Source of the DNA: Lactifluus volemus
Taxonomy: Eukaryota > Basidiomycota > Agaricomycetes > Russulales > Russulaceae
Direction: 5' to 3'
DNA length: 64,000 bases
Assembly: GCA_022376515.1 (NCBI GenBank)
Contig: WTXI01000190.1
Location: 1 to 64,000, forward strand
The notes beneath the pieces were generated by a model. The model was not told the DNA's origin. It ran no database searches and worked only from the letters and a program-made list of their open reading frames with translations. The translations under genes and the position numbers were made by a program. Below are positions 31,695 through 63,289 of this stretch, piece after piece; the first letter of the stretch is position 1, and each line of letters opens with the position of its first letter.

Positions 31695-32630
31695 TGTTAC
31701 GGTTATGCGGGCCGCCCGGCCCATTTCTTACTGTTTCCCGTCTGATTTTCGACTTGTGTTGTGACCTAGGATCCCTTCCCTTGGCCAGCCCCTTCTGTTC
31801 CGCTTCTAGAGGCTGTGCGTTGCCGTTTTGGACGTGTATTTGACTCAGGGATCATGACTCAAATCTTGAGTCAGCGTTCTTGACTCAGATCTTGAGTCAG
31901 ACGCACTGAGTCAGTTCTTGAGTCATCAGAACTGACTCAGGTCCTTAGTCAATAGTCTTGACTTCGCTACTGTACTGTGACCTTTGTAGGATAGTTGGCT
32001 GGCCCTCTGTACGCATAAATAGGGCCCTGTAGACGAGCTAAAGCCCCAGCTTCAGCTTCGTCTAGAATCGCAGTTCATTGTCTCCTGCTCACACTCGCAT
32101 AGCACCTTCTCCCTCTACTTGTTCATCCCCCTCTTCGTACCTTGATCCAGGTACTTCGCGCCACGATCAGACATCTGTGAACTTGTTCCATTTCCTTGTA
32201 ACAAGTTCCCAGACGCCTGAACCCTAATACGAACGCGCTGTGAGAAGTAGTCTCACTTCTCACCCCGCGTCCGCGTCACAAATCTTAGTTCAACCTCACA
32301 CGAGTGTCCTTGGAAGGCGAGACCCCCTTGCATTCCAAATACACTCGCGCCCGTGTCGCGGTTGAACCTACACATCGTCATTAACCCATCTGCCACCGTC
32401 TATCCTCTTTAGGAACGGTAACTCCGACCATCGCGTGCGCCGGCCCGCATTAACCGCCTCACGCGATACGAACCCCGAGAGTTCGCACAGTCAAGTCTAC
32501 TCCTCGTTGGACCTTGCCTGCGCGTTCTAGAATCGACTATTTGGTGTTGCTAGTCTTGTCCGACTCGCCACAGCAAATAGCCAATCAAAACGAAGCTCAC
32601 TTCGAGCCACGGTCCCTGCGAACCGTGACA
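31695..32630 (+). repeat. Gypsy-1 5' LTR (936 bp)
   Basis: TGTTACGG ... CCGTGACA. Contains repeated TGACTCA/TGAGTCA-type motifs at about 31851-31937 (AP-1/Gcn4-like sites; possible stress-responsive control, inference) and a TATA-like cataaatag near 32015, with predicted transcription start about 30 bp on. Confidence 0.95.
31848..31940. promoter_or_regulatory. Cluster of TGACTC/GAGTCA motifs in the LTR U3
   Basis: At least six copies of tgactca, tgagtca or close variants within 95 bp, upstream of the TATA-like box. TGACTCA is the bZIP (Gcn4/AP-1) consensus. The cluster is preserved in the old LTR copies at 17664 and 58920, suggesting functional constraint while active. Confidence 0.5.
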
Positions 32631-39241: not shown

Positions 39242-40177
39242 TGTTACGGTTATGCGGGCCGCCCGGCCCATTTCTTACTGTTTCCCGTCTGATTTTCGAC
39301 TTGTGTTGTGACCTAGGATCCCTTCCCTTGGCCAGCCCCTTCTGTTCCGCTTCTAGAGGCTGTGCGTTGCCGTTTTGGACGTGTATTTGACTCAGGGATC
39401 ATGACTCAAATCTTGAGTCAGCGTTCTTGACTCAGATCTTGAGTCAGACGCACTGAGTCAGTTCTTGAGTCATCAGAACTGACTCAGGTCCTTAGTCAAT
39501 AGTCTTGACTTCGCTACTGTACTGTGACCTTTGTAGGATAGTTGGCTGGCCCTCTGTACGCATAAATAGGGCCCTGTAGACGAGCTAAAGCCCCAGCTTC
39601 AGCTTCGTCTAGAATCGCAGTTCATTGTCTCCTGCTCACACTCGCATAGCACCTTCTCCCTCTACTTGTTCATCCCCCTCTTCGTACCTTGATCCAGGTA
39701 CTTCGCGCCACGATCAGACATCTGTGAACTTGTTCCATTTCCTTGTAACAAGTTCCCAGACGCCTGAACCCTAATACGAACGCGCTGTGAGAAGTAGTCT
39801 CACTTCTCACCCCGCGTCCGCGTCACAAATCTTAGTTCAACCTCACACGAGTGTCCTTGGAAGGCGAGACCCCCTTGCATTCCAAATACACTCGCGCCCG
39901 TGTCGCGGTTGAACCTACACATCGTCATTAACCCATCTGCCACCGTCTATCCTCTTTAGGAACGGTAACTCCGACCATCGCGTGCGCCGGCCCGCATTAA
40001 CCGCCTCACGCGATACGAACCCCGAGAGTTCGCACAGTCAAGTCTACTCCTCGTTGGACCTTGCCTGCGCGTTCTAGAATCGACTATTTGGTGTTGCTAG
40101 TCTTGTCCGACTCGCCACAGCAAATAGCCAATCAAAACGAAGCTCACTTCGAGCCACGGTCCCTGCGAACCGTGACA
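39242..40177 (+). repeat. Gypsy-1 3' LTR (936 bp)
   Basis: Same length as the 5' LTR and identical where compared. Followed by CAGAG. Confidence 0.95.
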
Positions 40178-44526: not shown

Positions 44527-45493
44527 ATGTCTGGATTATTTAATACACATGCCAACCTTTCACTGATAAGATACATATCCATCAGCAAAATGTCTGAGCA
44601 GCTTAAAGTTACTTAAAGTCACTTAAAAAGTTTTACTTAAAATGTGCTTAAAATATGCTTAAAATGTACTTAAAATTGCTTAAAATTACTTTTTAAGTAG
44701 TTTTAAGTACATTAAGCGAAGCTTAAGACAATTAAGTCATTTAAGCACAATTAAGCAAGTTAAGTGATGCCCATTTTTTAAGCAAAAAGTAAAGTGGTCA
44801 CATGATTTTTAATCAACTGCTTAAGTGTCATGTCTGTGTACTTAATTGCACTTAAAATATCTTGTTGACTGCTTACTGCACTTACCAGTTGCTTGATTAT
44901 CAGGTGTCACTTAATTGTCACTTAAAACCACTTAAAACAATTGGTTCACTGGTTACTAGTTATTGTGTTTGCTTAATTGTTACTTAAACATGTACAGTCG
45001 CTTAAAGTCACTTAAATTCGCTTAAAGTCGCTTAATTATCACATAATTAGCTAAGCACACTGAAAATTTTGTGAAGTCGCGAAGTTTTTGCCAAAGTCAC
45101 GAAATTTTGGCTAAGTCGTTCCGGTGCACCTGCATCGGTTGTTTACTCTTGTTTGCTTGATGTTGATTTTCGTTTGCCTCATCATTTTCGTGCCTCTCGT
45201 TGTCTGCGCCTATCCTCCCTCTGTCCCCTCTGTCGCTGACTCCATGTCACGGCCTCTGCTGTCGCCACCACCGCTCGCCGTCTTGCCCCGTCACGTCTCA
45301 GCGTCCCTGCATTCTTGCCACCGCTTCTTGTTTTTTTGACTTCCCCCGCCCCAACGCGTCCCACTGTTGCCCACCTCCGCCCCCTCTCCTCCTCTGCCTC
45401 TGCCTCTGCTGCGTCCTACTGTCTTCCTCACTCTTTGGATCCTATGTGCTACGACCGTGCTATGCCAAATACCTTCCCAACGGCCTCCTGCGC

Positions 45494-45985
45494 CTGCGCC
45501 TGCGCCACCTCTACCGCTTTCGCCACGACCACATCGCGCGCCTCCTGGACCCACTGGCACTGCCAGGCGGTCCACGGCGTCATGCTGCCTGCGCTGACAC
45601 CTTCTGCACCTCCCCGGTATGTTGTCACGCTGTCTGCCCCAACCCAAAGTGTTCTGACTTTCTCTTTTTTTTCTTCTTCCGCCTCCGCTGCCTCCTCCTG
45701 CGTCGTCGCCTGCACCACCTCCTCCTGGGCCTACTGGGCCACTTCCGTCTCCGCTGCCTGCACCGCATTTGCCTCCATATCGCACGCCTCCTGGACCCAC
45801 TGGCACTGCCGGGCGGTCCACGGTGTCATGCTGCCTGCGCCGATGCCTTCTGCACCTCCCCGGTATGTTGTCACGCTGTCTGCCCCAACCCAACCGTTCT
45901 GACTTTTTTTTTTTCGCCTCCGCCTCCGCCGCCTCCTCCTGCCCCACCGCCTGCCCCACCTCCTGTGCCTCCTGGGCCACTTCCG
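45494..45985. repeat. ~246 bp tandem duplication in E2 core
   Basis: The block ctcctggacccactggcact ... tatgttgtcacgctgtctg occurs at about 45540 and 45786 with few differences. Confidence 0.8.
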
Positions 45986-46539
45986 TCTCCTCCGCCGCTG
46001 CCTCCGCACCTGCGCTTCCCGCGCCTCCCGCGTTTCCCGCGTTTCCCGCGTTTATCGCGCCTCCCGCGCCTCCCGTGCAGGCACCGCATATACTCACCTT
46101 CGCTATGCCACCCGGTGTCGCTGTCGTCGATGCGTTTAAAACTCCCTTTTTTTCTATCTTCTCTTTGTACGTCCCTAACTTTGACCCCTTTTTTCAGACC
46201 TTATCCGGCATGGCAAAAACCACGTTCATGTCTGTCAAGATGACCACCCCGCCTATCCATCTTCCGCTGCTCCCCCATCTGATGCTCAACCGGACCAACG
46301 GACTCAGCCGGAACGCCGCTAGCAGCAGGTACATGCTCAGCCGCAATCACAGCCAAAGCGCCAACAGCAACAGCAACCCATCAAGGCGCAGCCCCGCGTT
46401 TGGAGCGCCTCCCGCATTTGGAGCGCCCCCCACACCTCCCGTGCCTCCCGCGCCTCCCGTACCTCCCGCGCCTCCCGCGTTTGGAGCACCTCCTGTGTTT
46501 AGAGTGCCTCCCATGCCTCCACCACTGGATTGTATTTAG
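45769..46539 (+). other. Low-complexity Pro/Ala ORF in E2 (256 codons)
   Basis: Open plus frame with PPAFGAPPA and PPVPPAPP repeats (46022-46080, 46395-46520) and no domain. Other frames on both strands are also open for long stretches, as expected from GC-rich repeats. It might be expressed, but nothing proves coding. Confidence 0.3.
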
Positions 46540-49461
46540 TCCTAGTTACTAATGTTGTAGTGTAATCTCAAATAAATTTTGCTTAAAATGTTCTTAAAAG
46601 TGCTGAAAACTAAACATGCTTGAAATTCACTCAAATGTCAAAATTGACCTGATTTTAAGTAAATAAAAAAACAGAAAATAAGCGAAATTAAGCGAAAATA
46701 AGCGAAAATAAGTGAAAATAAGCAAATTCCTGGAGGCCGACTTGTCTTAAAATGACTTAAAGTGCTTAAAGTGCTTAAAGTACTTAGGAGTACTTAAAAA
46801 AACTTTTTAAGTAACTTTAAGTAGAAATAAGCTGCTTGGACATTTTGCTGATGTCTCTACACAACATAGAAACTTCATCCAAGAAAATATATTGAACACC
46901 TACTAATCTAGTTTTTATCTACAAGAGCTATACGTTGGATGACTGGTTGCCATCAGAGCTGATACTGAGTACAGAATGATAAGTAGAACCTCTCAATAAA
47001 GCAGTGGCACTTCTGGTTGGGGCCAATATAAGAAGGCGATACAACTCATTTCTTCGTGAAAAGAATTCTGAGATAGCACGAAGTACCTGTGATTTTCCAG
47101 TACCTGCTATTCCACCGATGTACATCTTTAATTGTCCAAATTTGGGTCCACAGGAATGATTAACGACGATACGAAATACACGACCCTGTTCTGTATTCAA
47201 TTTGAAGGATGTCTTTATTTCTTCAATCGTATGACACCATTCTCTTGATTCGTACGCACGAGATAAATAAGATTTGTTAACAATATGCACTTCATTAGGT
47301 ATAAACTGTGAATTCACTACACAGGCCGTAGAGAAAGCATTTGAAGTTGCTGGCATGTTTCATGAACAAACATTGATAACCTCAGCATGTTTTTCCGCAA
47401 CAACCCTTTTCCACGCCGCACTGTTCTGCTTAATTTCAGGAGGAGTGCGATTGCAATTTATAATGAAAGCCATTGAACCAGGGATATGTGCCATCCATCC
47501 AAGATCTCAAAGTGTCGACCTCATTTCAGATATGAGTATGCACCGACCCTGTTCCCGTTTACCCAATACATCTGACAGATTACCAAGGTCTTTTCCAAGC
47601 ATATTATCATCACATATATTGGCTTTGGTAACCCCTGCTATATTTTCGTTCATATCTCATATTCCTTTAACATATTCTTCCTCCCATGAACTGACACCAA
47701 ACTCTTCCTTACTTAATTGTGCATGGAAGTCATCTCTTGCATCAAGACACTCGTATCTTATGTTCATATTCTTCATAATCTCTCTATGCCTGTCAGCGAA
47801 CGAGTAAGTGCTAAACGCATTGTCCCACGATTGCTCCCATGTTTTCAAATCTAATCCTGATCACCAAGGTTTAAACAATGTCATCATGGTACTACAATAA
47901 ATTTCGTGGTTACCTTGATCATATCTAGGGAGAGTTGGTCCAGCAAAGTTAGGAATTTTCTCTTTATCAACAAGACAACATCTAGTACCATGAGTATTCG
48001 TGAGTGGATGTTTGGGAAGGAATGGATACATCTTCGAACACTTAATCTCAACACCTATATCAGGGCATGAGGATTGACACTCATGATCAGGAGGACTGGA
48101 AGCTTCCATTCCTTCCGTTTTCATGGTATTGGGTACATGCCTTTTTGGCAACTTTATTTGTTTGCATCTTGCAATCCAATCATACAAAGTCATATCACCA
48201 AGAGCCTCAGACCTGTATACATAGTCATCAACTACTGAAAGACTGATGATTTTGTCTTTGCATTTGAAGATTGCAACCTGTTCCCTTTGACAACTGAGAT
48301 TTAACAGAATTAGTGTTCATGACTGATCCCAGTATATCTTCCACATTAGAACCCATAGACACAACTTCCATATTTTCACTGTGTCCAGATGATTCTTGTA
48401 ACAACCAAGGCTTCCTAGTGGCGTTAATGAAAGATGTCCAATAAAATACACGAAACTTATGGCTTTTGTAATGGTCTGGATTTCCCAACAGATACATACA
48501 TATCATTGGACTACCCATTTCCATCTTTGCACTGAGTGAGTTCACTATCTTTGTCAACAACTTCCGAGCCTTTTCTATACTAGAATCACTACCATTTACT
48601 ACATCAGGATTTCTTTCAAATATAGACCGTATCGTGTCAAATACCACATATGTTTTCAAAGGAGCCTTTGTCACATAATTTGTAACATACAACAGCACAG
48701 ATTTTATTGCAGTACCTGATCGGAGGCTGGTAACATCTGTATTACACCTAAAGAGATATGTGACTATATAAGAGAACATGTTTAGCCATTGCTCTGACTT
48801 CTTTAGGAATATACTGCCGGTTACTGGGTCGATATCAGAACAAACATATGTAGAGTGTGGAAATCTCGCTTTACACTTTCCATGAATGTTATCAAGACAG
48901 CCCTTGAATGCACGTCCCTTATTCTGAGAACCATCTTTATTCCTAGTACTCGAACATTTGTGTACATTTGATCTAAATAACAATGCATTCACCACTGAAT
49001 GGAATCATGACCACCAAGAACGCAAATCAATGCATTTGTCACAATTACCACAATTAATGTTCAAGCAAAGCAGTGGTGGTGCTTCAGGCAATGTTTCAGT
49101 AGGATCGAGGTAATGTTTTAATGTCAACGAGTGTCGCATTTCAGCATCCACCTCACTCATATTAGCAGATATGAAATCACCAGCATGTGCACCTTCTAGA
49201 TATGCTATCAGCCGCTCTTTGAACTTGGACAATGGATCAAGAATTTGTTGACACATTTCATCAGGGGACAGAGTTCCACGTATCCATATAAGCATATGTA
49301 AATGTAGAGACAACCTGCCTTGTTGCTCTATGGTACCGTAGAAGGCAGACGCATTACCATAAAGACCATTTCTTTTCTTACCAAAGCCTAATATGTGTTC
49401 TATAAACAAATTGACCATGAAATGAAAGAACCTAGCACATGTGACTGGATTATTTGCAATA

Positions 49462-51367: not shown

Positions 51368-52436
51368 ATGAGCAACAATGAAGGCAACGACTCTGACAGA
51401 GAATCTGTCTCAACACATCAATCCTCTCAGGCTGGCAAAAAACCCTCTATTATGAAAGCACTGAGCAACCCCAAAATGAAAAATAAAAGGTGAGATCCGT
51501 CATAAGCTTTCCACATATGTACCACTAACATGAACAACATCAGGACCGGGAGTAGGGTTGTCGGTGACTACAAAAGACTTGCTCAGTGGATTGGCCATTC
51601 AGAGGACACCTTCGTCGATTTTGATCTTGTGTTCCACATCGGGATGGAATGCGAAGGATCAGACAATGACATTGGCGACGATAATGCGAGCACAAGAACA
51701 GACACAGAAAGGTAAGCAACACGAGAACATACGCTGGTAATCATGGAACTGATGGTAAATACTAGAGAGGACGACAACATAGATCATTCCCATTATCAGC
51801 ACGTCTTTACAATAATTTCAGAGAATATACCAACGTTCGAGTCAGACCTCAAGAAGTTCAAAAAGAATCCTAGGGCCCTTGAAAAAACTATGTAGCCAGG
51901 TGTGAGAATCTTTTACACTTCCACATATTGCTAAATAATACTTGTGTCGTTACATTAGATGACCACATCACTTGGATTTGCACATTCAGACGACATCAGA
52001 ATCCTCTGCGAAGATGGCCTCGACTACGTCGCAACCACCAGCTGAATAATGATTTAATGCCCGACATCCCTCCCCACTTGTCCAAGCCAACTTACTGTGG
52101 GTGAAATCACCCTGTTCTGGCCGAGCTTCTGTGTCCATCAAACACCTCGATAAATTCCGAGCATATCCAACTAGGTAAATGATAACTATCGACACGAAAT
52201 GTCATACTTACAGATTTTTTTTTCTTTTTTACAGGACAATACATGACTTCATGAATGGATCTCTAAGAGTTACCGCTGATCAACTCTGTCTCTTCATGTA
52301 TCACAATTATTCCATCGACTATGAAAACCTCATGGATGGACTCCTGTGCTCGGACCTCATCAAAATGGTACACGAGTTTGTAACACGTATTTTTGTTCAC
52401 TGTTAACAGTCTTTAATGTGGCACAGACATGGCATT
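51368..52436 (+). pseudogene. Gene B 5' part (paralogue of gene A)
   Basis: Exons 51368-51489 (starts MSNNEGNDSDRES), 51544-51711 (VVGDYKRLAQWIGHSEDTF), 51766-51899, 51959 to about 52173 (SDDIRILCEDGLDYVA, LAELLCP), about 52236-52366 (TADQLCLFMYHNYS), then a short exon (about 52411) that is cut at 52436. Stops (TAG in exon 3, TGA in exon 4) and a frameshift near 52137 mark a pseudogene. The 3' part resumes at 57888. Unknown function; introns 50-60 bp. Confidence 0.65.
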
Positions 52437-52575
52437 AGACCGGTGACCGTCTCTCGGCGAGACCTAAAACGGATCTCTTGCTAGAGAGACTGGTCAATCT
52501 GAGTTTTAATCTCGCAGGCACCTGAAAATCCCTATAAGGATAGGCTCGATAAGGGAATTAGTCATGTGATCACAA
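52437..52575 (+). repeat. Left TIR of the helicase/DUF6589 transposon
   Basis: Pairs imperfectly with 57749-57887. Best blocks: gtgaccg(t/g)ctctcg, tctgagttt, ataggctc(g/a)ataagg(g/a)aa, tcatgtgat. Confidence 0.75.
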
Positions 52576-52604
52576 ATAAAGACGTGTTCTACCTTCAAAC
52601 GTTA

Positions 52605-54690
52605 ATGAGTATGGCTCAACCTGACGCGTCTTTGCTTGCGAATGAGCTCGAAAACATTCGAAACCTTACTGGGGACTTGCTGCTCTCAAGATTTGAAAAA
52701 ATATGCCCTATTAAACGACCTGGACCTGAATTTCTGGCAACATTGGACACTTCTGAACGAGATACTGTCTACAAATGCTGTCTCCTACTGTCTACAGTCA
52801 CGAACGGCGAAAAAATACCTCAGGAGTTTTAACTTAAGGCTGTGCTAGCTCTTCTCTCTGGTCAGGACACTCTGATTGATGCTGGGACTGGCTCTGGCAA
52901 GACTCTGTGCATGATCCTGCCGGCTCTTTTGGACCCTACAGCAGTGTCTTTGGTAATTTCGCCTTTAAAGCGACTGCAAGTGCTTCAGGTGAGCAGTACT
53001 AGTGACGCAATAGTTCACTTCTAATTAAAAGTTTCAAGGTTGCTGAATTTCAGTCCTATGGACTAACGGCTGCATGTGTCAATGAAGACACCCCGAATTC
53101 GAGCGAATTTTGGAAGGTATAATCGACTCGGAATCGAATCTTTTTTTTTTTTTGTTTCGTTGATGTTTCGTTAGTCTGTGCAAGCGGGGGATTTCAATAT
53201 CCTCGTTGTACAACCCAAACAGCTGCAAACTTACAAAGGGCATCTGCCTCGTCTTGCACAGGCTCTACGCAATTCCCGGCTACCCAAAATAATCAAACGA
53301 GTCCACGTTGATGAAGCGCACTCAATTCACACAGCGGGGATACCATTATACGGCCAACCAGCTTTCCGACCTGCCTGGGGCAATCTTGGTAAACTTCGCC
53401 TCTTACTGCCGAAGACCATCCCTGTTCAGGCGCTTTTGGGGACGCTTCCTCCTCATATAACCCGCTGTGTCACGGAGAAGCTTCTGTTCCCATCGGACTA
53501 TGTTACAATTGCGCTTACATCAAATCAGCCAAATATCACATATGCCACCCATCCTGTCGTAGGATCGCTTAGCAACTTTCGCAACCTTCAGTTCCTCGTT
53601 CCAGAACATGGAAATAAGACTTTTGATCCCAAATTGATCCCCAAAATGATCATTTTCTTTGATAACGTCCAAGAAGCTACTAACACCACAAACTACCTTA
53701 ACAGCCTCTTTCCTGAGACCATGCAGCACTTGCGATTTGTCAAACATTATCACAGTAAGATGTCATTGGAGTATCTTGAAAGCACGTTTCAAGATTTTGC
53801 CTCACCAGATGGAACAACAAGAATACTATGCGCAACATCTGGCGCATCGACCGTAAGTGGACAAATTCTCTTCTTTTTTAACTGGCTTTTACTACTTTCA
53901 TGTTAGGGACTTGACGTGTTGGACGTTGAATGTGTTATCCAGTATGGCATGTGCAGAGACATCACAAATCTCATCCAGAGGGGTGGCCGTTGTGGACAAG
54001 CAACATCAACTCCCGCACTCTTCCTTATACTCTATGAACCTTGGGCCATGACTGCAGACCTCTCCTCGTTGATACAGGACCCTGGTGATCCAGACCAACC
54101 ACTACGTCCGATAACGAACACTTCGAGAAAGCCTGAGCGAACTGGGGTGGCGATGTATCAACTGGTCCAATCGTCTGACTGCACCCGCCTCTTTTTTGCA
54201 AATTACCTTCATGATTGTACACCAAATGGTGAGTTTCATTTGTGTTGTTGGCGGGGGAGTTCTCACTTGTAAACCACTAGCATTGAATTTCACTAACAAA
54301 TTTTGCTGCGATAAGCACAGCGATGGCTTTAATCTTGCTGATTTCTTTCCGGGGAAGTTTTATTCAGCCGAAACACTGGTATTCATTGATCAAGAAGTCA
54401 ATGTGGCCTCCTCAAGACCGAAATATCGCCCAAAGAAGGAGCATGAACCTCTGAGAGCAGCTTTGTATTCTTGGCGAGCGCATACACATGAAAATGATCC
54501 ATTATGCGGAGTGCGACAAATCTCATGGATTCTCACCGACACTGAGATCGAAGTTATCTGCAAAGCGCCACGAAAACGTGTCACCGATGTTGATCAGCTC
54601 AAGACTTTGCTGGATGCCAGTTCTGACTGGGTAGATGAGTGGGGTCAGAAAATCGTTGACGAGATCTGTTCATTCGATGCATCCATGTGA
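52605..54690 (+). pseudogene. RecQ-like superfamily 2 DNA helicase of the transposon
   Basis: ATP-dependent helicase fold. Exons: 52605-52988, 53039-53116, 53175-53852, 53907-54228, 54281-54690; introns 50-58 bp, all GT-AG. Motif I AGTGSGKT (after LLSGQDTLID), motif II VDEAHSI, motif V region ATSGASTGLDV, motif VI QRGGRCG, then a Cys/His patch (FCCDKHSDGF), as in RecQ zinc regions. One in-frame TAA at 52830-52832 (EF*LKAV) stands where Gln CAA fits; otherwise open. Start: ATG 52605, second ATG 52611. Convergent with the DUF6589 gene. RecQ-like is from motifs; true RecQ orthology is unlikely. Confidence 0.8.
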
Positions 54691-54706
54691 AATTTTTTTT
54701 ATGTAA

Positions 54707-57688
54707 CTATGTATTGTCAAATTCAATGGTCAATTGCATACTTGGTATCTCGTCCTCTTCAATCATCCCTGCCATTTCATCTACATGTCCTGCCTTTATG
54801 CATGCAAGCTTTTGTTGAATGTTTCGAGACTTGATGACAACAGCTTCCTCTCCCCGATGTCAATTAGATTTGTAACCAACCTCTGTTTGTCATTCCCCTT
54901 ACGACCAGGCTGATATTTGCTGAGCGCAAGCTCTCGGACTTCGTTGGCAACCTTCCAGACGAGCATTGATGTGTCTGGTGTTGTATGCGTCTTTCCTTCA
55001 TATGATGCACCCAAGGCTTTTGTGACTTGCTTCTTAACATTTTGCAACTGAAGAACGGCTGCTGAGATGTCGCCAAGCTTGTCCCAGCTTGAACGAAGAC
55101 CTTTAGCGACAAAAAACATCTAAAACGCTAGTTACAGCTAATTGCATCGGCATAGAAATATTTCCACACCTTTAGATAACCAATGAGATGTTCAATATTG
55201 AGATCAACAGCCATGAAGTGACCTGGCAACCCTGAGACATTGACGATCATATTGTCACGCATAATATCACTAACATCATTCAGAATTATCTAAATCGGGA
55301 CCTCTTAACTTGAACTCACGCAAACTTGGGCATCCAGATATGCTTCAGGTTTGCAAGAAAGTGAAGAATCTCCATGCAGTAGTTGTTTGAGCCAGCACCC
55401 CGGAAGATTTTCACCAAGACAGGGAGAAGGTCTTCAACATGTCCAAAATCGCCCTCAGAGATTGCCAAAGTCAGTTCTATCATATATAACAAATCACGAG
55501 TGAGGAGGAGTGTATTTTGATGAGCAATATCATGAAGCGGATCAAGTGCACCAGCATATGGTGGGATTGGGGGATCTTTAGCCTTAGATCCCTTTTGCCA
55601 GTTTCCCAAGGGACAAGCAGACCGGTTCAGGATACTCTGAGCTCGGAGGAGAAGATCCTGAGCACTAGGATTCATCTTCGCAAATTCAGCAAAATCCCCA
55701 AGTTCATCAAGCCATGCGCCAAGGATAATACCCTCCAGTACCTGCGTCAGAGCTGCCAGGAGTTTGTGGTAGTCAGGATAATCAGCGCCAAGGCATGCTT
55801 TCTCCATTAGACCGAAGAAGTAAGTCAGGCTGCCGGTTTGTTGGAGCGAACCACGGTGAACATGAAGGAGAGCCCAGATCAAGTTCATGCACAGATGGAA
55901 TAGGCCAAAACCAAGCTGAAAGATGTCTTGTCGAGTCCAGGGATCAAGATCATTGACACACATAACTTGTCCTCCACGAATACGAGCATTGGTTGACTGG
56001 TCGTTGACACTTGGGATCGCATACTTCACCAGATCGTCTGCATTTCGCTTAAGCTGAACCAGATAAGCGTCATCATGTACCATAAGATTTCCGTGAATCA
56101 ATGATTCCTCAATTGTTGTTGTCCAAAGCGGGAACTGCTCTGTTTTACCACCAACTGCTAGAGGATGCCGAGAAATTGACTGCAGAGCCGGGTGAGAGCT
56201 ATATCCAGAGTAAAGGGGGCAATGCTTGAAGAGAATTCGAAGAATAATCACGGAAAATTGATGGTTGAGGCATTTGAGTTGGTCAAGACTGAGGCGGAGG
56301 TCTGAGGGCGAAAGACCCTTGCAGTTTCGATATCTATTGATGATGGGCTGTAGTTTCAAGTCATCGAGTGTTGCGTTTCGAAGTCCATAGAGTATACCAA
56401 ACGTGCCAGATTGGACTTTCGCAGGAGTTGCAGCACCACGTTGTTCCACAAAGATAGATGAGCTGATATTGATGTTATCATAACAGAACATGTGTGGAGA
56501 GGATGCTATTTGTTTCGCAAGGGTGATATAACGCTGGCTTAACTGAGATAGGAGTTTCCCAAAGCTGTCATAAGAGATAGTGAGGCTGCAGCGAAAGAGG
56601 GCATCGATAGTTTTCCTCGAGGACCCTGTGCTCCAAAGAAAAAGACCAAATACTGATTGAAACTTGATGCTACGATTTGACCGTTGATATGCGAGCTGGG
56701 AGATGATCACGTTGCAAGCCTAATCTGTTTGAGTAGATGTATATGTGCAGTAGATATTTCTGCTCACTGTCTTCGGGAATTTGATCTTGTTCTTTCGTTT
56801 AGCTTCCTGGGTCTGAGCAGCCGCTTCGAGAATGTGTAAAAGTGATGGACAAAGCTTTGTAGCGGGTTCTACGACTCTCTCAAGGGTCCAATTTGATATG
56901 AACTCGGATGAGACATCTTCAACGCTTGGAAAAGAGAGTTCCTTTACGACAAGGTCCATTTCCGAAGCAACCATCGTACAGATGGCTTCGAGCGAATGGG
57001 GACGAACCCAATGTAATATTAAATCATGGCCTTTTGGGTGTGCAAAGATAAGATCGAGAAGGACAGAAATTTTGTTACAATTCAAAGAGAACCATCACGT
57101 TTGGTAATGTTCATATTCGTCTTGGCCAAGGTCAAGGAGATCAATAATAAGGTCCAACGGCGATCGGCCAGCATCAGAGAATAGCTTCAAGACCTCCTTC
57201 TTGCAGTCGTTCCAACCGTTTTGGGTCCCAGGAGAGATAATGTCTGGAGATTCATACACACGCAAGTTTGAAGTCTCAAGCACATCACCCAGGGTGTTGG
57301 AGAGCTCTAGCACAACAGAAGGGCTCTCTGAAGGCGAACAAGACGTCTCGTTAGCCCCTCCATTATCCAGAGTAGTACCGCATGAGCTGAGCTTGTTGAC
57401 AGTAGCATTCAGATTCCATGATGAGCTCGAGAGCTCAGACCCAGAGCCAGTGTTTGACAGAAATTTGGAGGGGTCCCAAGTCTTAAATCGAGGGGTAGGG
57501 ACCCAAGGACTCCCTAACATTGGATGTGGCTGGTTTTCATCTTGAGTACGCGAAGATTTCAAGGAGTCCGAGCCTGAGGGTATGCTGCCAAAGCTTAGAA
57601 GTTCTCCGTAGTTAATTGACGTCTTTCGTCTTCGTTTCTTGGGTGAGTTAGCATTTACGAATACAAAGGCATCATTTGGATGCTTCAT
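54707..57688 (-). pseudogene. DUF6589-family protein, candidate transposase
   Basis: Minus exons: 57688-56768, 56719-55320, 55269-55170, 55119-54707; introns 48-50 bp. N-terminal basic, Ser-rich part (PKKRRRK, a possible nuclear signal), then the conserved part: LFLWSTGSSRKTIDAL, YDNINISSSIFVEQRG, KVQSGTFGILYGL, AIPSVNDQSTNARIRGGQ, LGFGLFHLCMNLIWALLH, LLAALTQVLEGIILGAW. I recall this as DUF6589 of fungi. The spaced Asp/Glu residues (YDN, NDQ) could be an RNase H-like centre; inference only. Breaks: TGA at 57095-57097 (CGA fits, T*WFSLN) and a two-base insertion near 54855 that hides the C-terminus (RNIQQKLACIKAGHVDE). Start ATG chosen at 57688. Confidence 0.75.
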
Positions 57689-57748
57689 TGCAAAGCACAA
57701 GTGGAAGAGGAGGTGTAGTAACACGTTCTGATGGTTTGCTGCTCCCTT

Positions 57749-57887
57749 GATTTCGCAATCACATGATAGATTTCCTTATTGAGCCTATCTATATACGGAA
57801 CGATCAGGTAGCTATATAATTTAAACTCAGATCTACCAGGCTCTCAATTGAGGTTTACCTCATTATCGAGAGCCGGTCACGAGGCTA
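57749..57887 (-). repeat. Right TIR of the helicase/DUF6589 transposon
   Basis: Reverse complement of the left TIR with substitutions; ends ...ggtcacgaggcta at 57887. Confidence 0.75.
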
Positions 57888-58520
57888 ACATGGCGTTGCC
57901 TTTTCCAAATTGCCAAATCAGGTACAGTGGGCCGTCAAATCAAACGTAAGTGACAAAAACCTGATACATACTTTTTATCATCCGTCACGCCAAGGAGCAT
58001 CGCCTATGTGACCCTCCACGTATGTATTTATTCACAACATCTTGAGCGTTCTGACAAATTATTAATTACAGATGCGATGGTTTCTATCCAGTGTAGAGGA
58101 CTGGAGAAAGGACGACAGCAAAGTTGACAAAGCGGTGTTTTACTACACCATCATCAACCTCTTCAAGAGAAAGGACATGAAATATTAGTCCAATGGTGTA
58201 TTACAGGAATGGAACAAGTAAGTCATTATGAACATATCAGAACTGATACTAACATATTATAGAGAAATGTTCCAGAAAAGGAAGACATACAAAACACTTT
58301 CCACCTCCCTCTCAGCGTTATATGAACAGTCTTGGCGACGATCACTTGCTCTTATGAGTACCATTACCGCCAGTACCGTGAATCACGCGTCTTCACCACC
58401 TGCCACACCTGGAGCATCATGTTGTTCTTGGTCCCCCGCGTCTGTCAGGGTATCACGCCCTTCATCTCCATCCGCAACCACCAGGGCCACACGTCAATGA
58501 TCTCCACCCACTCCAAATAG
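57888..58520 (+). pseudogene. Gene B 3' part
   Basis: Continues gene B after the transposon (CAC AGA CAT GGC, then SKLPNQVQWAV). An exon at about 58072-58217 carries SSVEDWRKDDSKVDKAVFY and, after a TAG, VLQEWN, matching RLDDWQSNELNFSKDELF and LEEWN in gene A. The following exon from 58262 is Ser/Thr/Pro-rich. Damaged by stops and frameshifts. Confidence 0.55.
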
Positions 58521-58679
58521 TGCCTCACACCCACGTGACACAGTATCACCCCCCTCCTCACCATCTGTGGCTGCCATGTCTACACACCATTTGCCTGCAT
58601 CAATCAGAGCCCCACATCAGTCAACCAGAGTATCATGTTCTTTCTCGAGACTTGCATCAGCCAAGCCATCATGCCAATC

Positions 58680-58830
58680 CACCCAAACATTGTCCCCACC
58701 TGTGGCAGCCAGTGCCTCATGCCAATCTGCCTGAGCGTCATCCCCACCTGTGACAGCCAGTGCCTCACGCCGATCCACCCAAGCGTTGTCCCCACCTGTG
58801 GCAGCCAGTGCCTCATATCTATCAGTGCCA
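58680..58830. repeat. 48 bp minisatellite, about three units
   Basis: Unit: c(a/g)t(t/c)(g/a)tccccacctgtggcagcc, then agtgcctcatgcc. Starts near 58689, 58737 and 58785. Length is a multiple of three, so 16-residue repeats appear in several frames on both strands; a shorter, diverged version continues left to 58530. Confidence 0.75.
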
Positions 58831-60440: not shown

Positions 60441-63289
60441 TCATTCATGGTCAGCAGCATAGTCCCAGTCACTCATCTCCACGTTGATCCAGCCAGATGT
60501 GGAGCGATCGACACCGTGGCCATACCAGAGGTAAGCCTTCTTGTCGCTGGTGTAGGGACACGACCAGTGCCAGTGAGGGTGTTCTAAGGGGACTCTACAA
60601 GCATCTCCGAACTTGCATTGCTGGTGGGGTTCATGACACGAAGGGCCTGAATGGCCGTAGTCAGCGCACCATTCGCACCATTGGTGGAGGGGGCACTCGA
60701 TGTAGAGGTGCCCGGGGTTTCGTCGCTTGCATCGACCACAATAGGGTGTGTGCGTGACCCTGGCTGCGGCACTATCAGCGGCGGTTCCACTGCTACTATT
60801 GACGACCCGTTCCACGCAAGTCTTGCAGTAAAGGGGATGCGTGCTGTCATAAATTGGACTCCTTGGCCACTTGTCGTCGTCAGCGTTGCCGTCATTATCA
60901 AATGCCCATCTGAGTTCGTCGTCCTGGATAGGGGAGACAGATGAGGCGGGCGAGTCGCGGACATTAGAGGTCGGTGAGCTTGGTAAGGAGGGTAGTTGGT
61001 TGTTTGGTGGGGAGGGGGCAGCGTCGCTCCGTGGGAGTCCACCAAAATCGGGGAGGTTCTCATGCCATGTTGGTGATGCGAGGACGGGGAGTAGGGACCG
61101 CGGGTGGTCGGAGGTAGGTGTGAGGTAGTCCCAAAGCGAACTCGTCGGTTTGGGTTGCTGTATGGCCCATGCTGTGAACTCGCAGGCCTGGAAGAGCGAT
61201 TCTCTGAGGGCGTCGTCAAGTGGGGTAATTCGCGGGTATAAGGTGGGAGAACGGGGGTCGGGGAGCGGTTTCTCGGACGCCGTGTATAGGTCACTGGGAT
61301 AAATGGTGGAGAGGCTGAACAAGGATTGGTAGAGGGACGACGGGTGGATCGGGCGGATGGGACGTGGTGTGGGTAGGTCATATTGGGCTGGGACATGTTG
61401 CATACGGTGAACTGTGAGGGAGGTTGATAGTGGTGGTGTGGTAGTGGTGGGGATGAAAGTTGGTGATGTCGTTTCTTGTTGAAGCAAGAGGGTTCTTATA
61501 GCTTTTGGTTGAGCTTTGTAAAAGGCTGTGAGTAGTTCTGGGGCGTCAACATTCTCAGCTGGTTCCCATGTGTTGTGTGCAGCGGAATAGCCTTTCCACT
61601 TTAGGAGATATTGGAGTCTTGTCTTGTTCTTTGGTCCGATACGTCTGGACCCTAGAACAGCTTCTACTTCGTACTCCTCTTCTCCGTCTACAAGTTCCGG
61701 TACAGGCTGTTCAAAGTTCGGACCATGTTCGGGTGTTTCCGTATAGGGGGCGATCAGTGATGTGTGAAACACATCATGAATCTGCCATCGATCTGGGAGT
61801 TTGAGGCGTACAACTACTGGTGATATGACTTTGGTGATTGTAAAAGGTCTGTAGCGTTTTGGGGCTAGTTTGCTGCTAAGGTGCGTCATTTTGAGATTGG
61901 TACCTTCAAGCCAGACTTTTTCTCCTACGGCATATTTTCGGTAGTGGCGTTGACCCTTCTTGTGTTCCGTGCGTTTGTGAAGGAGGGTCTGTGCGTGTTT
62001 CATTGCTGATCGGGCTTTTTCCTGGATGTTTTTGAGTTCTTCAGATCTTTTATTGACATAGGGTAGATGGCTTGTGATCTGAGAAGTCGCAACAAGAGGG
62101 GTGTATCCAATGAGGAGTTCGTATGGAGTAAATCCGGTTGTGGCGTTTGGCCATGAGTTATGGACAAACTGGGCCATGGGTAACAGCGTAGACCAATCGT
62201 TCATGTAGTCATTGCCGTAGATGCGGAGATATTGTTCTACTCGTTGGTTACTTCTTTCTGATTGGCCATCCGTTTGAGGGTGGTAAGCGGTACTAATGTT
62301 TTGCGATATTTTGAGTTTCTGACAGAGTCCTGTGGCCAGGTGTGATGTGAAGTGGGGATCTCTATCAGAAATGATTCTTCGGGGAATGCCGTAGTTTGGA
62401 AAAACGTTGGAGATGTATAGGTTGATAACTTCTTCCGTGGTGATCTTCTTTGTACATGGTAAGAAGACGGCAGCTTTAGTGCAATCGTGATCAACGATCG
62501 TGAGGATGGAATCATATCTGTGTGATTCGGGAAGATCTGTGATAAGATCCATCGCAACAACTTGAAAGGGAACGTTGGATGCTTCCTTTTCTCGTGGTTT
62601 GATGGGAGCGATAGGGGGTCTTGGTCGGTGGGTAAGGGGTTTTGTCGACTGACACGTAACACATCCCTTGACATATTGTGTGACGTATTGTTTGAGTCCA
62701 GGCCACCAGAAGTTATGGAAGACTTCTATCATGGTGTTGGCGATGCCTGGATGGCCAGCAAGCTGATGGTCATGATAACGCCAGAGTATATCTTTCTTCA
62801 GCTGATCGTCTTCAGGAACTACTGGGGCGTCTGCTTTCCACCAGTGTCCTTCATGATCTTGTTCTAGCTGATGTTCTTCAGCCCATCGTTTCATGAGGTC
62901 GTCGCTTTCCTTTTGTGCTAACCAGACACGGTCTTCAATGGAATAAAGTTCCATCGCTTGGACGAAGAGTTTGTCAGGTAACACCACAACGTCTTCGTTG
63001 TCGTCATCGCCTTTTGGAATGGCGGGATGTCGTGATAAAGCATCAGCACGATTTGTGGCCCCTGGTTTATGGATAAGTTCAAAGTTGAACTCTGCTAACT
63101 TGCTCAGATAGCGCGCTACTCTTCGTGCGATGTTTCGTGGTGACCGATAAAATCGAAGATTGTTGTGGTCGGTGTATACTTTGATTGGGAAAGGTGAGGA
63201 TAGTAACACATGTTCCCAGCAAAGGAGTCCTCTGACGACTGCTAAGAGTTCGCGGTCATAAACTGGGTAATTTCTTTCTGCAGCGTTTA
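60441..63289 (-). CDS. Gypsy-2 pol: RNase H (partial), integrase, chromodomain, Cys/His-rich tail
   Basis: Open minus frame from the interruption at 63289 to the stop at 60441. Order: RNase H C-terminal part (NYPVYDRELLAVV, YTDHNNLRFYRSP); integrase zinc finger (HDHQLAGHPGIA, CVTCQ); catalytic core (AMDLITDLPE, ISDRDPHFTSH, QTDGQSERSNQ, the D-D-E triad); chromodomain (YLLKWKGYSAAHNTWEP); Pro/Ser-rich linker; Cys/His cluster (YCGRCKRRNPGHLYIEC, WCEWCADYGHSGPSCH); acidic end (MSDWDYAADHE). It differs from gypsy-1 throughout, so it is a separate lineage. No internal stops in the visible part. RT and gag lie beyond the inserted element or the window edge. Confidence 0.9.
60584..61396 (-). CDS. 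Overlapping ORF (270 aa) in the +1 frame of gypsy-2 pol
   Basis: Starts ATG (MSQPNMTYPHHVPSARS) after the chromodomain and ends TGA at 60584, within the Cys/His region. Basic Ser/Pro/Arg-rich first part; ordered later block (IMTATLTTTSGQGVQFMTA, RLAWNGSSIVAVEPPLIV). That block can be aligned by eye with gypsy-1's (VTVLINSRGYVQQMGTA ... RLRRMGGRLVVIPESAL). Same relative frame (+1) and same place as the gypsy-1 ORF. Unknown role. Confidence 0.5.
   Translation of the reverse strand: MSQPNMTYPHHVPSARSTRRPSTNPCSASPPFIPVTYTRRPRNRSPTPVLPPYTRELPHLTTPSENRSSRPASSQHGPYSNPNRRVRFGTTSHLPPTTRGPYSPSSHHQHGMRTSPILVDSHGATLPPPHQTTNYPPYQAHRPLMSATRPPHLSPLSRTTNSDGHLIMTATLTTTSGQGVQFMTARIPFTARLAWNGSSIVAVEPPLIVPQPGSRTHPIVVDASDETPGTSTSSAPSTNGANGALTTAIQALRVMNPTSNASSEMLVESP

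Follow-up and report, generated by a model that had tools for sequence, protein, structure and literature searches.

A decayed DNA transposon with a RecQ-like helicase and a DUF6589 protein in Lactifluus volemus, most likely of the AcademH type

A DNA transposon of 5,452 bp lies at positions 52436-57887 of a stretch of 64,000 nucleotides of the mushroom Lactifluus volemus (the window), which represents the start of contig WTXI01000190.1 (C102 below) of the 62.4-Mb assembly GCA_022376515.1. The element is bounded by TAG...CTA and harbours two genes, coding for a RecQ-like helicase and a DUF6589 protein. Its ends are imperfect terminal inverted repeats (TIRs) of ~142 nt. The left TIR (52436-52577, + strand, first bases TAGACCGGTGACCG) pairs with the right end and recurs at six other places, and the right TIR (57746-57887, - strand, last bases CACGAGGCTA) was delimited by a terminal-pattern scan and end-to-end comparison. 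The first 142 nt and the reverse-complemented last 142 nt share 101 identities in 150 columns. The 170-nt ends gave a local score of 64, compared to at most 25 for 1,614 random 170-mers from the window, which bears out the imperfect TIRs reported in an earlier note on this DNA, made from the letters alone. That note placed the start of the element at 52437; the actual start is 52436, one base further left, since the T to the left of the repeat is common to all five independent insertions.

The transposon is flanked by a target-site duplication of 9 bp, as found by flank comparison, with a left copy at 52427-52435 (ACATGGCAT) and a right copy at 57888-57896 (ACATGGCGT) that matches the left one at 8 of 9 positions. 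It had previously been described as a duplication of ~10 bp with one mismatch. The mismatch stands and the length does not: the tenth base is the element's own T, present beside the left repeat in all five insertions, and a tenth duplicated base is not common to them. Exact 9-bp duplications were found at the insertions on contigs C252 (ACTTATGAT), C615 (CTTCCCTTA) and C591 (GATGTATGC). Among the five independent insertions the duplication is thus exact at three, 8/9 at one (the window) and absent at one (C597). Empty sites were searched for in the assembly with a query in which both host flanks were fused at a single target copy. This query gave 20 matches. Ten cross the join, six are half-matches from the three contigs that carry the insertion, and four are partial. 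Eight of the ten join-crossing matches were aligned and proved to be paralogous sites of 83-92 % identity with one target copy each; two pairs among these eight appear identical over the compared stretch. A distant paralogue within the window (~11.8-12.6 kb) is uninterrupted at the insertion point as well. Insertion into sequence that is continuous elsewhere, as read earlier, is borne out by this paralogue and the ten join-crossing matches. The TIR transposon at 52436-57887 is a real element, supported by its ends, duplications and empty sites. The host DNA to the right of the insertion (58658-58800) contains three tandem units with 48-bp spacing.

The helicase gene, of superfamily 2 (SF2), occupies 52605-54690 on the + strand. 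In the splicing model it has five exons (52605-52988, 53054-53116, 53175-53852, 53907-54228 and 54281-54690), separated by GT-AG introns of 52-65 bp, and 618 codons ahead of the final stop. The motifs GTGSGKT (52884-52904) and VDEAH (53307-53321) are encoded on the same strand. The protein matches Pfam Helicase_C (E 6.7e-14) and DEAD (E 3.6e-10) and shares 75 % identity with a protein of Russula emetica; the closest PDB chains are the RecQ-type 1oyw (E 2.8e-15), presumably E. coli RecQ, and BLM (E 4.6e-15). The DUF6589 gene, coding for the proposed DDE transposase, runs on the - strand (54796-57688) and was modelled with four exons (57688-56768, 56719-55320, 55269-55170 and 55119-54796), introns of 48-50 bp and 914 codons ahead of the final stop. 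The two multi-exon genes are convergent, as had been noted, and their stop codons are separated by 105 bp (54691-54795) instead of the ~16 bp given before. One nonsense change plus one small indel had been ascribed to each gene. A single in-frame stop is indeed present in the helicase gene (52830-52832) and in the DUF6589 gene (57095-57097); neither spliced model needs an indel.

Kolobok elements have TTAA as their target duplication. The duplications found here are 9 bp long, of varied sequence and not TTAA, and their length already contradicts an assignment to KolobokH. KolobokH is likewise a fungal DNA transposon lineage carrying a RecQ helicase, reported from fungi only (PMC9587614; statements from cited papers, here and below, refer to excerpts of them). 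In KolobokH, however, the helicase is placed downstream of the transposase domain, whereas the helicase of this element is encoded by a gene of its own, convergent and on the other strand, and membership of this lineage is extremely improbable.

The largest exon of the DUF6589 gene matches Pfam PF20231 (E 4.1e-63), and the encoded protein and a protein of Russula emetica have 77-85 % identity, varying with the stretch compared. A DUF6589 profile search gave 219 matches; those with an organism name among the 120 listed are all from fungi, and many are unlabelled. The predicted structure of the Russula relative has an RNase H-type fold by structure comparison (VIA-align 2). Candidate catalytic residues D, D and E are conserved among DUF6589 relatives in an alignment (A1) of 49 of the 103 proteins matched, chiefly the longer ones. 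The corresponding codons in the window lie on the - strand at 56477-56479 (D), 56000-56002 (D) and 55191-55193 (E). The signal for the fold is weak with Foldseek alone, which gave nothing at E <= 0.001 when run with the DUF6589 structure against the PDB and viral models. All 49 relatives scanned with Pfam matched PF20231, and none of these 49 matched a named transposase family, that of Mutator-like elements (MULE) included, at E <= 0.01. No clear sequence similarity to hAT (Hermes) or P element transposases was found. The fold and the D/D/E assignment, resting on the predicted structure plus conservation, indicate that DUF6589 is probably an RNase H-fold DDE transposase family, in support of the role proposed for it in the earlier note.

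It had been suggested that other copies be tested for TIRs, and the same ends were found at six further places. The terminal 21-nt pattern was scanned across the whole assembly, giving 23 matches. Fourteen of these, with 0-1 mismatch, are both ends of exactly seven places; the nine remaining ones, with 2 mismatches, are at the control level (13). The six places beyond the window comprise two contig copies of the same insertion, one independent insertion and three mini-elements. The full-length copies on C102, C217 and C611 have common flanks. Within the element they differ by one-base indels (17 columns) and by no substitution, and their matches at 46.5-48.5 and 61.5-63.5 kb are collinear too. 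Because of these common flanks, indel-only differences and collinear surroundings they represent one insertion, and the possibility of three independent insertions was rejected. The near-identical collinear stretches are either redundant assembly or a very recent duplication. The two public DUF6589 proteins of L. volemus (P0103 and P0104) probably derive from this single insertion. The expectation that an intact relative exists in the same genome was not confirmed: the eight DUF6589 profile matches listed, of at least eight in the assembly, all lie in the three contigs of this one insertion, and no further DUF6589 gene was found among them. No helicase of the same family was found in the assembly beyond these contig copies and a fragment on C252, bar six weak matches (E 1.4e-4 to 8.3e-4).

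The independent insertion on C252 consists of a 654-bp left and a 187-bp right part around ~11.6 kb of other DNA. At this locus (C252:1043-13485) the element ends and the 9-bp duplication are intact despite the replaced interior. This interior contains open reading frames that, by motif, may be hAT transposase fragments, and two stretches in inverted orientation to each other that are related to positions 45081-46069 of the window. The mini-elements on C591, C597 and C615 measure 77, 88 and 86 bp and retain little beyond the two outermost ends, with left-end portions of 47-51 bp and right-end portions of 30-47 bp, which overlap in two of the three. The C597 mini-element (C597:7837-7924) has perfect terminal 21-mers, and no recognisable target duplication was found by flank comparison. 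The sequence itself establishes the element's ends, the target duplications, the empty sites, both genes and the mini-elements. The short length of the mini-elements suggests that, in cis, 47-51 bp from the left end and 30-47 bp from the right one are enough, provided that these elements did not arise by deletion after insertion.

The earlier note proposed to look for adjacent helicase and DUF6589 genes in other mushrooms. A helicase and a DUF6589 protein of one species were counted as a pair when found on contigs of identical size, and linkage was thus deduced from contig size. The helicase set of 71 named matches was obtained from 101 by omitting the last 25 (E 8.5e-11 or weaker, those with a name being bacterial RecQ or other helicases), along with five unlabelled ones. 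For DUF6589, 18 of 103 matches without an organism name were omitted and 16 named ones from the 120 listed were added. Species with a listed DUF6589 match account for 49 of the 71 helicase matches, and 20 of these 49, from 17 species, share a contig size with it, compared to ~2 expected by chance for an assumed 60-Mb genome; without the 16 added matches the count is 16. For contigs under 200 kb there were 7 pairs out of 22 vs 0.08 expected. The other 29 of the 49, R. emetica included, have no shared contig size among the matches listed, with one size per protein cluster. A 5,161-bp contig of Dentipellis fragilis carries both, as genes with consecutive numbers. The pairing was therefore found elsewhere, and the equal-sized contigs argue that the two genes may travel together. 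Relatives were also sought in viral contigs (75 pattern matches) and in prokaryote genomes (312 pattern matches), of which tblastn confirmed none.

Mutator-like elements usually have long TIRs, and the element could in principle be one that captured a helicase gene. A duplication of 9 bp also lies within the 4-10-bp range stated for IS256/MuDR (PMC10045372). The accompaniment of DUF6589 by a helicase in 17 species, as judged by equal-sized contigs, is unlike a single capture, however, and the Pfam scan of the 49 relatives, with its lack of MULE matches, points in the same direction. Such an origin is very improbable.

The earlier note could put no name to a class combining a helicase with a DUF6589 protein in a TIR element, which is not supported, as AcademH fits the helicase, the DDE transposase and 9-10-bp duplications. 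To our knowledge AcademH is the only kind of element that joins a helicase, a DDE transposase, TIRs and 9-10-bp duplications. All four are found here: an encoded helicase (Pfam Helicase_C and DEAD; RecQ and BLM chains), TIRs, a 9-bp duplication at four of the five insertions, one of them with a mismatch, and a probable DDD/E transposase with an RNase H fold in the predicted structure and conserved D/D/E. On the basis of these features together, AcademH membership is most likely. Very probably it is an AcademH-type DNA transposon that moved by cut-and-paste, was once autonomous and has since decayed, matched by described features and not by transposase sequence. AcademH was described by Kojima in 2020 (Mob DNA 11:15). 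It comprises those Academ transposons that encode a helicase; they are known from animals and fungi, have 9-10-bp duplications (PMC10045372; PMC10799480), and occur at low copy number in Basidiomycota, Ascomycota and Mucoromycota (PMC10799480). Academ is mentioned or Kojima 2020 cited, without defining features in the excerpts, in PMC8290104, PMC12210899, PMC9970103 and PMC12411881.

Alternatively, the element may belong to a separate, unnamed superfamily, with a DDE transposase unrelated to Academ and a RecQ-like helicase acquired independently, as in KolobokH (PMC9587614), the other fungal lineage with a RecQ helicase. The match of all 49 relatives to PF20231 and of none to a named transposase family would agree with this. 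The name DUF6589 was also absent from the literature searched, a search that covered papers and not their supplementary files; PF20231 occurred there only in an unrelated optics paper, and nothing was found on L. volemus with transposable elements. The missing Pfam match weighs little, because Pfam may include no Academ transposase family, and the helicase, the fungal host, the low copy number and the 9-bp duplication all agree with AcademH. This alternative is unlikely. A more specific proposal, about as unlikely, is that DUF6589 forms its own eukaryotic DDE superfamily, structurally nearest to hAT/P, with an obligatory RecQ-like partner across mushroom-forming fungi, in which the helicase would set the 9-bp stagger or be needed for strand transfer.

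For an AcademH-type element, a DUF6589 transposase would bind the TAG...CTA ends, excise the element and attach it to the target at joints staggered by 9 bp, and gap repair would convert this stagger into the 9-bp duplication. The product of the helicase gene on the opposite strand would be an accessory enzyme, with a probable role in unwinding or resolving DNA at the ends or target joints. We infer this chemistry, the cut-and-paste mode and the role of the helicase. DUF6589, a large fungal family of unknown function, can thereby be tested for action as a DDE transposase. The candidate cis ends, down to 47 + 30 bp, suit a transposition assay, and the part of the partner helicase in cut-and-paste transposition becomes directly testable.

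The window harbours other repeats. Positions 61500-63287 (1,788 bp) recur with 90-93 % identity at no fewer than 37 other places of the assembly and represent an abundant repeat family. A ~354-bp repeat at 46500-46853 has many copies, several of them 99-100 % identical, and is a recently active element or terminal repeat. Positions 31695-32614 and 39242-40161 match the same flank sequence with equal extent and identity (76.7 % each), which suggests a direct duplication ~7.5 kb apart.

The element was compared with several known systems. Helitrons are not known to have TIRs or a target duplication. They also encode a helicase, but combine it with an HUH nuclease/Y1 transposase and single-stranded transposition (PMC12730594). 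hAT (Hermes) and P elements have 8-bp duplications and are not known to encode a helicase, and differ from this element with its 9-bp duplication. AcademX elements are DNA transposons with an accessory DNA-processing enzyme as well, but with a nuclease in place of the helicase and 3-4-bp duplications, compared to 9-10 bp in the helicase lineage; the author ties this difference to the accessory enzyme (PMC10045372). With AcademH the element shares its nature as a Basidiomycota DNA transposon, the helicase gene, the DDE transposase, the 9-bp duplication and the low copy number, and no difference is known in this comparison by description, as opposed to transposase sequence or terminal bases. The class itself is thus most likely already known as AcademH, and the result added here is the identification of DUF6589 as a probable DDE transposase family.
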